From: a virus
Strand: one strand, 5' to 3'
Length of the DNA stretch: 36,913 nt
IMG/VR virus record: IMGVR_UViG_3300030012_000595
Coordinates: 1 to 36,913 of that record
Shown here: piece after piece, positions 32,023 to 35,846 of the stretch
Layout: the number at the start of each line of letters is the position of its first letter
Numbering within the stretch: position 1 is the first letter of the stretch
Position numbers and translations under genes: made by a program
Notes under the pieces: generated by a model
Seen by the model: only the letters and a program-made list of their open reading frames with translations
What the model was told of the DNA's origin: nothing
Database searches by the model: none

Positions 32023-33915
32023 CTATCCCCAAGGGCTTTCGTTCATATCGCTTATATTCCATTCTCCAAAACTAGGTTTATAATCTAATCCTACCTCAGC
32101 TAATCGTTCTTTTCCTAATCTTCTAATAACTTTTAGAGGAAACCAACTAGCCATTACGACATCTGATTTATAACTTTTCGCCTTACTTGCCTTACTAGCA
32201 GCAGATGAAAAATAAATTAGTTGTCTACGATATATATTACTCTTAGTTTCGCTTTCTGTATCACCATAAGGCAGATTTATTAGCTTTTGTTCAAATAACT
32301 GTTGCATACTTCCAACACCATAAATTGGGTCATACTTGTTCTTTTGTGTCTGATGACCTTCTAAATATACACCAAATCTACTACAGTAATCTTTTATCTC
32401 TTTATCTTGCCTAATAGCTTTCTGAAAACCATTCTCTTCAATAACCCAATGTGCAAGTCCATACTTCTCATACCATTTCTGTATTGACTTCTTAGCTTGT
32501 ATAACACCACCACCTTGTTCGTTTTCTATATCTACAAGATACAACTGACCTGTTTCTGGATTTGCTGCCCACAATACACAAGCCTGAAAACCTGTAGATG
32601 CAGGGTCTAATCCTGCAATCAAATGTGTACCTGCAGGTATGTGACCAACTGTTCTATTGACATCTCTACATTGGTCTATATCTTCAGAGTTAAACATTGT
32701 TATACCTTCTACAAATGCTTTGTTTAGATATACCATCTCAAAGATAGCTCTACCACCTGTAGTATCTGCATTATTCTTTTGTGACATAAGCCATTTAAAA
32801 GTACGCTTACTTGCCCATAACATACAGTCTTTATGGTCCTCTATATCACCTTCTGGCAATATACACTCTGAACTATGTGCCTCTTCTACAATGTGGTCAA
32901 ACTCTGGGTTTTCTAATAAAAAGTTATATAAATCTTCAGGGTGCTGTCTTGACCCAATCACAACTACAGCAGTATGTTCCTCTTTACGAGATGACAGAGT
33001 AGTTGTCCACCATTGTCTAGTTTGTTCTCTAGCACTAGGTTGTATTGTTGTACCATGGTCCTCAATATCATCTGCAATAATTAAATCACAGTCACGAGAA
33101 AGTATTTTACCACCTTTACCTACAGCAACCATAGTAGGTGACTTTATACCAGTAACTGTTCTAGTAGCTATAGTAAATTGTCCTGATGACCAAGATTTAC
33201 CTGACCTTACTTTTGGTTGAAACTTAACACCTGGTCCATTCATTTCTTCATTAAGTTGCTCGTTGTTCTCTAAATGGTCCATAACAGAACCTACAGCATT
33301 CTTTGCAATATCTTCATTACCACCAACCCACATAATTCTTATGTTTGGATTTTTACATATCTGCCATACAGCAAAGTGTGTAAGCAAGTCTGTCTTACCA
33401 TGTCTAGGTGGGCTTAGTATCATTTGTTGCTTACCATTTTCTATAGCATCAACAATATTGTTTATCCAGTTCTCGTGAAAGTCTGCTGTTTCGTATAGGT
33501 CACCTGTTTCTGTTTTAAAATACCTATCTCTAAAATCTTTAAAATCTTGTAAGGATTTCTTTGTTTCCTCTGCTATCTCCCAGTCTTGTTGTGCTTCAAG
33601 TATTGCTTTATCTTCTCTATACGCTGCATACATTTCTGTAACAGTTACACGACCAATATCCATAAGGTCAGCAACTTGTTGATGTGTAAATACTTTATCT
33701 TCTATCTTTTGTGCATATAGCGTAACAAAGTCTTTATAGTGCTGACCTCTGTTTGTAGATGATTTACCAGAAGGTTCTGGTTTTTTCTTCTTTTTATTTT
33801 TTATGTAGTGGTATCTTTTTTTACATTTATCAGTACAGTATGGGCTACGCTCTCTTCTCTGCCTTCTACAAGATTCACCAACTAGCTCATTGATTTTACA
33901 TCTAGGTCTAGCCAT
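32023..33915 (-). CDS. Terminase large subunit with N-terminal zinc/HTH extension
   Basis: 630 residues. ATPase: Walker A LSPPRHGKT (167-175) and Walker B LIIADDIED (278-286), plus VVVIGSRQHPEDLY as coupling region. Nuclease: D437 in IAGLDPAS, E493/E494 in HWVIEENGF, D585 in SYKSDVVMA. The first 100 residues hold C6, C16, C27 and C31 in a basic region (KKRYHYIKNKKKKKPEP), a possible zinc knuckle, then a helix-turn-helix (THQQVADLMDIGRVTVTEMY, 77-96). No separate small terminase was found, so this extension may bind DNA in its place. It cleaves and translocates the genome into the head. Confidence 0.92.
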   Translation of the reverse strand: MARPRCKINELVGESCRRQRRERSPYCTDKCKKRYHYIKNKKKKKPEPSGKSSTNRGQHYKDFVTLYAQKIEDKVFTHQQVADLMDIGRVTVTEMYAAYREDKAILEAQQDWEIAEETKKSLQDFKDFRDRYFKTETGDLYETADFHENWINNIVDAIENGKQQMILSPPRHGKTDLLTHFAVWQICKNPNIRIMWVGGNEDIAKNAVGSVMDHLENNEQLNEEMNGPGVKFQPKVRSGKSWSSGQFTIATRTVTGIKSPTMVAVGKGGKILSRDCDLIIADDIEDHGTTIQPSAREQTRQWWTTTLSSRKEEHTAVVVIGSRQHPEDLYNFLLENPEFDHIVEEAHSSECILPEGDIEDHKDCMLWASKRTFKWLMSQKNNADTTGGRAIFEMVYLNKAFVEGITMFNSEDIDQCRDVNRTVGHIPAGTHLIAGLDPASTGFQACVLWAANPETGQLYLVDIENEQGGGVIQAKKSIQKWYEKYGLAHWVIEENGFQKAIRQDKEIKDYCSRFGVYLEGHQTQKNKYDPIYGVGSMQQLFEQKLINLPYGDTESETKSNIYRRQLIYFSSAASKASKAKSYKSDVVMASWFPLKVIRRLGKERLAEVGLDYKPSFGEWNISDMNESPWG

Positions 33916-34986: not shown

Positions 34987-35193
34987 ATGAGTGATTATAT
35001 AAAAGGAAATAAATATCCTAATTACAAACCCTCTACTTCTTATACTAGTGGAAGAATTTGTTTGCAGGAAGGCTGCGATACTGTTATATCAAAATATAAC
35101 AAGTATAGATATTGTAATACTCACAAAATTAAAGTGTACCCAAGAATAAAGGGCAGAAAACCACCCATTGATTTACAAGAACCAGGTGCGTAA
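34987..35193 (+). CDS. Zinc-binding small protein, 68 aa
   Basis: Starts MSDYIKGNKYPNYKPSTSYT. Core: C-x4-C-x12-C-x2-H (RICLQEGCDTVISKYNKYRY then CNTHK), a treble-clef-like CCCH site similar to zinc motifs in small phage DNA-binding proteins. A basic middle (KVYPRIKGRKPP) supports nucleic-acid binding. There is no ribosome-binding site; TATACT (34972-34977) ends nine bases before the ATG, so the mRNA may be leaderless. It is divergent from the late operon and adjacent to the gene-free interval, and may be a regulator or origin-binding protein. Confidence 0.7.
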   Translation: MSDYIKGNKYPNYKPSTSYTSGRICLQEGCDTVISKYNKYRYCNTHKIKVYPRIKGRKPPIDLQEPGA

Positions 35194-35207: not shown

Positions 35208-35261
35208 AATCATCTTGTTATACCATACCCTAGACTAGCTAGGGCATATACAGGGAGGAAC

Positions 35262-35282
35262 ATGAATAAAGAATCATGTTAG
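35262..35282 (+). CDS. Possible leader peptide MNKESC
   Basis: ATG 35262 to TAG 35280-35282 encodes MNKESC. It is preceded by GGGAGGAAC, as strong a ribosome-binding site as any in the window, which is surprising for six codons. It lies between the hairpin at 35228-35244 and the structured region. It could be a leader peptide, a remnant of a lost gene, or chance. Confidence 0.3.
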   Translation: MNKESC

Positions 35283-35780
35283 TTTAAGTATAGCAAAAAA
35301 TGGTTAATGAGTTGCCCCAAAAACCATTTCTTGCATATTATTTATTTGTATATCCCATTACAGGTACTTGTATTATATTAGCCTTCTGTTATTATTCAAG
35401 TAACAAAAATTATTTAGGAGTAGATAGATACAGGTAAAGAGGGCATCAGGAGCACAAAAGGCTTACCAGGGAAACCTGACCAACTAGAAAGACAAGTAAG
35501 CTACCCAAGGTCTAAACCAAACTAAGTAATCAAAACTTTTCGCAAATATATTGCCACTAATGCCTGTTATGGAAAATCAGCTAGACTACCCTTATTGAGA
35601 AAGAAATGTAAAGAGTGTGAAAACACTCTAAAACAGATAGGTAAACAGAATAGATACTACTGTGATAGTTCACCTACTATATGTAGTATGTCAGGTAAAA
35701 CACACACTATATAGTATGCCTACTAGACATTGTTTTAGTACAGTTTGTCACCTTTAAATAAAGAGTGGTTACAACATATA
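35283..35780 (+). ncRNA. Candidate large structured noncoding RNA
   Basis: Predicted helices by eye: GCAAAAAATGGTT (35293-35305) with AACCATTTCTTGC (35322-35334), 13 positions and one mismatch; TACTTG/CAAGTA (35365-35370 with 35397-35402); GGGCAT/ATGCCT (35441-35446 with 35560-35565) enclosing GCTTAC/GTAAGC (35461-35466 with 35496-35501), which stacks on CAGG-GAAA-CCTG (35467-35478); GCAA/TTGC (35542-35554); AGAGTGT-GAAA-ACACTCT (35612-35629); ATACTAC/GTAGTAT (35654-35660 with 35683-35689) around GTGA-TAGT-TCAC; the palindrome ACTATATAGT (35706-35715). Two hairpins have GAAA tetraloops only on the + strand, which favours a + transcript. Size and phage setting recall ornate RNAs such as GOLLD and ROOL, but I could not match either; limits are approximate. 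Confidence 0.45.
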
Positions 35781-35846
35781 AAGAAAGAGCTAATATTGAC
35801 ATTTGCATTAGTTTTATTGTTGTCTTGCCTGTATATATAAACACTA

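Follow-up and report, generated by a model that had tools for sequence, protein, structure and literature searches.

A conserved structured RNA core behind a promoter-like sequence in an almost unannotated group of marine phages

Does the interval at 35283-35780 of this phage genome encode a structured RNA, and what might such an RNA do there? The window (the whole stretch of DNA analysed) is an entire virus record of 36,913 bases, in which gene direction flips at ~34.9 kb, leftward before this point and rightward beyond it. The gene for the terminase large subunit (TerL) is found at 32023-33915 on the minus strand and matches PHROG 38. The window is part of an almost unannotated marine phage group: nucleotide similarity searches against cultured phage records gave nothing useful, and the nearest cultured relatives of its TerL are distant, with ~26% identity. 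For most of the window's proteins, among them those of 1666, 642, 603 and 581 aa, there is neither a PHROG match nor an above-cut-off Pfam match. A sequence-only reading had proposed a large structured RNA for the whole interval. An undescribed folded RNA on the + strand is indeed what we found, with a core of ~160 nt and not 500. As judged from sequence comparison, positions 35405-35566 (+) are a functional, conserved structured RNA core with seven helices and a pseudoknot, which we have called type I. That a real structured RNA is encoded at this locus seems to us practically certain.

Homologues were collected by a terminase search in viral contigs, which gave 80 loci, and by a scan with the consensus GTRAAG-N5-ATCRGGA-N4-RAAAG, which gave at least 120 stretches, some of them coding false positives. 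Scanning with a variant loop recovered a third group, clade C, with the loop AUCGGAC, and a scan of 84,980 bacterial and archaeal genomes returned two MAG contigs with type I, both apparently phage. The total is 144 distinct copies, from marine viral contigs and 2 MAGs. Near relatives share an identical block of 80-85 bases with altered flanks, and in remoter ones the unpaired letters are the same and whole stems have been exchanged. The covariance model R1, with the window as one of its 47 seeds, matches positions 35405-35540 with 109 bits (E 2e-23) and scores clade C, which is outside the seed, with 65-87 bits. All 17 virus records tested contain one copy each. A divergent copy (L211/L212) is found in a 58,316-base MAG contig, G002 contig C30, which looks like a single 43.85-kb phage genome read past its end; an identical stretch is present at 1 and ~43,866, and the genome would therefore be circularly permuted.

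The core, on the + strand, begins shortly before P0 and ends with the 3' strand of the pseudoknot, as delimited by the match to R1 and by covariation. P0 joins 35409-35417 with 35522-35530, with double changes in 7/7 family pairs, and is also present in the minimum-energy fold. P1 joins 35425-35429 with 35510-35514 (double changes in 5/5 family pairs), and P2, with RGUR as its 5' strand, joins 35433-35436 with 35502-35505 and is always paired. The P3 hairpin (35441-35455) is formed by 35441-35444 and 35452-35455 and carries the 7-nt loop AUCAGGA at 35445-35451; double changes affect 3/4 of its pairs and 94% of its cells are paired in 71 copies, the second pair being a G-A mismatch in the window's clade. 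P4 (35461-35501, pairing 35461-35466 with 35496-35501) shows double changes in 5/5 pairs with 100% of cells paired, and encloses P5 and P6. P5 (CAGG-GAAA-CCUG, 35467-35478) is a GAAA hairpin already pointed out by the sequence-only reading, and its helix is kept despite wholesale sequence exchange. P6 (35484-35491) is a C-G pair closing the hexaloop UAGAAA; the pair is swapped between C-G and G-C in a 34:36 ratio among 71 sequences, with no mismatch. The pseudoknot or kissing interaction pairs CAGG in the P3 loop (35447-35450) with CCUG (35563-35566), which belongs to the GCCUG at 35562-35566, assigned by the covariation of loop and downstream sequence. The unpaired core (GURAAG, AUCRG, RAAAG, UAGNAA and CAAA) is very conserved, and the internal loop between P0 and P1, often AGUA facing GAA, looks by eye like a bulged-G (E-loop) motif. 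Further conserved pieces downstream of the core are clade-specific. In clade B loci such as L111, L098 and L103, a conserved element GAATTACCAGCATATTTTT..AGACATACGTA is found ~70-100 nt past the core; it is perhaps an extra RNA domain or a short peptide.

Compensatory changes across homologues, which the sequence-only reading had named as a check, were found and speak for a + strand RNA. In alignment A1, made with MAFFT from 47 rows and with the structure read by hand, 88.4% of cells are paired, compared to 58.5% after shuffling and 30-40% with slid partners, and 25 of the 31 pairs show double changes. RNAalifold alone predicted 27 pairs, 23 of them with compensatory changes. Alignment A2 contains 71 diverse copies and, having been fitted to the model, is biased in favour of the structure; in it, 91.2% of cells pair (59% shuffled, 31-41% with slid partners), 26/31 pairs have double changes, and the covariation score reaches 0.78, as opposed to 0.21 for shuffled and 0.08-0.13 for slid alignments. 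G-U cells outnumber A-C cells 125 to 9, and the selected, acting molecule is therefore the + strand RNA. Regarding the pseudoknot, the P3 loop variants CAGGA, CGGGA and CGGAC are matched by GCCUG, GCCCG and GUCCG in 33/33, 84/84 and 22/22 copies, respectively. Hence, the pairing of the loop (CRGG or GAC) with GCCYG or GUCCG is consistent in 139/139 testable copies, the window having CAGG and CCUG. On the TerL tree this interaction has changed at least 10 times, always in a coordinated manner (94/94), and for a G-C/A-U pair in P2 the minimum is 9 changes, with 0 mismatches in 94. These changes were counted on an independent protein tree, so the covariation is not accounted for by common descent alone.

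Judged on energy alone, a criterion that the sequence-only reading had itself set, the claim of an RNA would fail. The 498-base interval has a z of -0.95, with 16/100 shuffles as stable, and the core a z of -0.96, with 35/200 shuffles as stable. The minimum-energy fold of 35405-35540 in the window does give the consensus P0, P1, P2, P4 and P5. It is the comparison of homologues, and not folding energy, that we take to establish the RNA. One could argue from the shuffles, which fold as stably as the real sequence, that there is no RNA here and that the signal comes from a DNA element, a coding sequence or chance. We consider this exceedingly improbable in view of the compensatory changes, their controls and the excess of G-U over A-C, and because insertions and stops disrupt every frame within the core. 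A coding origin of the core was rejected on the same grounds, as a 3-nt insertion and stops in relatives break any frame.

Several other parts of the initial proposal have to be revised. The 13-position stem at 35293-35334 exists (GCAAAAAAUGGUU/AACCAUUUCUUGC, 12/13 positions pair) and falls outside the RNA, because it is upstream of the promoter at 35368-35395. A second GAAA hairpin, at 35612-35629, can also be formed and lies inside a conserved open reading frame (ORF) for a small Zn-ribbon protein; the presence of this ORF means that the interval is noncoding only in part. The nested GGGCAT/ATGCCT domain is pairable in the window and is not kept in relatives, its bases being used by P3 and the pairing of the loop with GCCYG. 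The argument from GNRA caps does not hold either: a GNRA-like cap is present on P5 alone, where cap and stem both vary freely. AGGTAAA, seen three times and proposed as a shared motif, belongs to the conserved RNA core at 35432, while near 35638 and 35693 it corresponds to codons of the ORF that vary in relatives; the three copies are a coincidence. In all, several of the proposed helices did not hold.

Upstream of the RNA, the 35293-35334 stem is kept in close relatives with one compensatory change (GGUA/UACC in L061), and is perhaps a terminator or a 3' UTR element of the gene at 34987-35193. Further upstream, 35219-35249 and 35259-35280 contain a CCCTAGACTAGCTAGGG hairpin, near-invariant in relatives, followed in near relatives by an identical AACATGA/TCATGTT inverted repeat.

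A sigma70-like promoter is present at 35368-35395 (+), with TTGTAT at 35368-35373, a 16-nt spacer and TATTAT at 35390-35395, and we infer a transcription start at ~35402-35404, a few bases before P0. The promoter-like pattern (TTGnnn, 15-18 nt, TAnnnT) is found just before type I in 121 of 142 distinct copies, 98 of them with 16 nt, compared to a background of 7.6% in random windows and 7.3% in other intergenic windows. This promoter-like sequence would drive the operon pointing away from the terminase operon. Where TerL is present, it is always upstream of type I on the opposite strand (73/73 TerL genes), and in contig C36 of G002 a distance of 64 nt separates type I from the start codon of the divergent TerL.

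What follows the RNA is less constant. In clade A the next gene on the same strand is always the Zn-ribbon ORF (35595-35714, + in the window; 39 aa, TTG start), whose pattern CxxC...YYCDSxPTxCS is conserved in ~50 distinct proteins of 37-40 aa, with ATG or TTG starts and without a clear Shine-Dalgarno. Changes at third positions are in excess in this ORF, and the members of a 30-member cluster are always on the RNA's strand. Clades B and C instead have a noncoding stretch of several hundred bases after the RNA. A conserved ATTRACATnnGCAT-like element, seen with both RNA types described here, is found past the Zn-ribbon gene at ~35811-35830 in the window. Since some relatives apparently lack an AUG, we examined a structure-driven (IRES-like) translation start; it was rejected, as each of the three frames is represented among the open ones that follow GCCYG.

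The window also contains the palindrome CTATATGTAG (35677-35686), one of the YACTANATNTAGTR sites that are typical 200-600 nt after the RNA. Over ~155 loci, almost all of these sites are placed 200-600 nt past the RNA, often 15 or 28 bases apart, and they reach 0.95 per 900 nt after RNAs of both types, against 0.033 expected (~30-fold). CTAnATnTAG sites are unremarkable across the whole window, the enrichment becoming visible only when sites from many loci are placed by their distance from the RNA. They could be operators or origin sites. Terminator-like hairpins downstream of the RNA were found in 11/22 loci of clade C (4/66 in shuffles), 12/51 of clade A (10/153) and 13/61 of clade B (12/183), those of clade C, present in half of its loci, lying ~200-235 nt after the core. 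The window's own rightward genes, examined on the + strand, gave no terminator-like site.

TerL relatives without type I have a different element, type II, which is likewise flanked by this promoter and this Zn-ribbon gene. From an alignment of 22 type II rows (A3), we obtained a nine-pair helix with eight covarying pairs, further helices and a pseudoknot between a loop and downstream sequence (CCAGCU/AGCUGG, CUAGCU/AGCUAG and CCUGCU/AGCAGG). Type II has no Rfam match and is a second structured RNA, unrelated to type I. The TerL tree requires at least 7 to 8 switches between the two types, all at exactly the same site, and all TerL loci with more than 2 kb upstream carry one or the other, except two truncated loci; no type III was seen. 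The type II loci are L014, L028-L030, L032, L039, L047, L048, L050, L081, L084, L085, L088 and L304-L334, an example being L321:7361-7571 on the minus strand. The CCCTAGACTAGCTAGGG hairpin is near-invariant with either type.

In order to contextualize type I, it can be compared with known RNAs. The phi29 pRNA, a small RNA of phage origin, has a junction and loop pairs that covary, and is encoded near a packaging gene. All of these traits are shared by type I, which differs in being next to an ordinary large terminase, in showing no evidence of a packaging role and in matching no Rfam model. The glutamine, c-di-GMP and other riboswitches combine a junction with a pseudoknot. The likeness here is one of general architecture, together with the E-loop-like AGUA/GAA between P0 and P1; the differences are again the lack of an Rfam model match and an inconstant downstream gene. 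Against Rfam 15 (4227 families, including GOLLD, ROOL, group I introns, ribozymes and riboswitches), neither the window nor eight related loci gave a match at gathering score, and with relaxed thresholds the core's matches, at E up to 5-10, were at chance level. No description of type I was found in the open-access literature, a scope that excludes preprints and subscription papers. We thus call type I a new RNA family, in line with the possible new class that had been proposed.

The likeness to GOLLD and ROOL suggested by the sequence-only reading was not borne out. Both families are included in Rfam 15; they are structured RNAs of phages, without a known function, that have kissing loops, covary strongly, measure ~650-800+ nt and are encoded near tRNA islands (PMC12286853). 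Type I is likewise a phage-encoded structured RNA with a kissing loop and strong covariation, but it is placed at a TerL-divergent promoter, has no match in Rfam 15 and, with a core of ~160 nt, is much smaller than the more than ~600 nt that characterize those RNAs. A closer parallel in position is HK022, where putL is found just downstream of the PL early promoter and exerts its action on the polymerase purely as an RNA; put, of ~70 nt and two stem-loops, replaces nut/N in lambdoid phages (PMC9378689). Like put, type I is a phage RNA just past a promoter-like sequence at the start of an operon, and the alternation of put with nut/N at one place resembles that of types I and II. Unlike put, it has at least 160 nt, a branched junction and a pseudoknot. 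By size and fold type I is not a put RNA, and by analogy it may work like one, through polymerase binding and antitermination, put being an RNA that binds the beta' zinc-binding domain of RNA polymerase and suppresses both pausing and termination.

The reading we prefer is that type I is a promoter-proximal, cis-acting leader whose target would be the transcription complex or the fate of its transcript, most likely through control of elongation (antitermination); we give it a tentative probability of roughly 0.38. The RNA would fold on emerging, with P0 closing near the 5' end, P1-P6 forming next and the pseudoknot between loop and GCCYG last. Once folded, it would modify the polymerase that made it, allowing the downstream operon to be read, and type II would do the same job in sister phages, as with lambdoid nut/N or put. 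We favour this reading because the place after the promoter is fixed among phages whose TerL proteins are only ~50-55% identical, because the downstream gene is inconstant, and because types I and II are exchanged at the same place; with downstream content varying by clade, an action on the transcript or polymerase fits better than the control of one gene. That downstream terminator-like hairpins are commoner than in shuffles supports it as well. Some doubt comes from the window's + strand, which offers no terminators to overcome, and from the hairpins elsewhere, which are far from universal. Two observations count against it: there is only one copy, where two would be expected if both divergent operons needed the RNA, and type I exceeds put in size and complexity. 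Its location and the exchange of types are also compatible with an origin or with an RNA acting in trans. A discrete phage RNA made early and acting in trans, for example by binding a host protein or ribosome component or by countering host defence, would owe its locus to the promoter, and could account for its own promoter-like sequence, the very conserved unpaired core, the hairpins ~200-235 nt past the core in half of clade C and the changing gene that follows. We find it doubtful, given that its position at the start of the operon is kept across such divergent phages and that two unrelated RNAs share a slot from which a trans-acting RNA would be free to move.

A riboswitch, attenuator or translational leader sensing a ligand, ion or protein for the downstream gene or operon would agree with the 5'-leader position, a junction with many invariant unpaired bases, a pseudoknot close to the 3' end, an arrangement that many aptamers share, and, in clade A, a directly downstream Zn-ribbon gene that lacks a clear Shine-Dalgarno. 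It is nonetheless unlikely, as the downstream gene differs among clades, the reading frames past the pseudoknot are unfixed and type II substitutes before the same Zn-ribbon gene. The palindromes, enriched after both types of RNA, and the GC skew of the window, which turns at ~35 kb, could point to an origin of replication, with the promoter transcript folding to prime or activate replication nearby, as ColE1-type RNA II does. This we judge quite unlikely: gene direction changes at the very point where the skew turns and confounds it, the palindromes may instead serve as operators, and no initiator gene was recognised nearby. Finally, a packaging RNA like the phi29 pRNA, with loops pairing between copies, would be in keeping with TerL adjoining the RNA in every TerL-bearing locus and with a covarying loop pair that could form between molecules. 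However, the TerL has an ordinary size (~630 aa, PHROG 38), its synteny follows from the divergent promoter and nothing separates intra- from intermolecular pairing, so that a role in packaging is very unlikely.

Returning to the cis-acting leader, if type I were a true antitermination RNA it would be a new variety of this kind. A bolder and rather improbable proposal is that two independently built, interchangeable RNAs occupy one promoter-proximal slot throughout a whole marine phage family. The activity that they provide would be a new one, needed by all members and perhaps exerted in trans or by multimers joined through the P3 kissing loop. In any case, the support for type I as an RNA class is strong; it has no relative in Rfam 15 and comes from phages that are hardly annotated. 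With one RNA in each record tested, its replacement by type II in relatives provides natural, built-in controls for asking why a complex RNA should stand at the very start of a transcript. Type I is kept at the same place after the promoter in well over a hundred distinct marine phages, and such conservation points to a dependence of these viruses on an RNA device.
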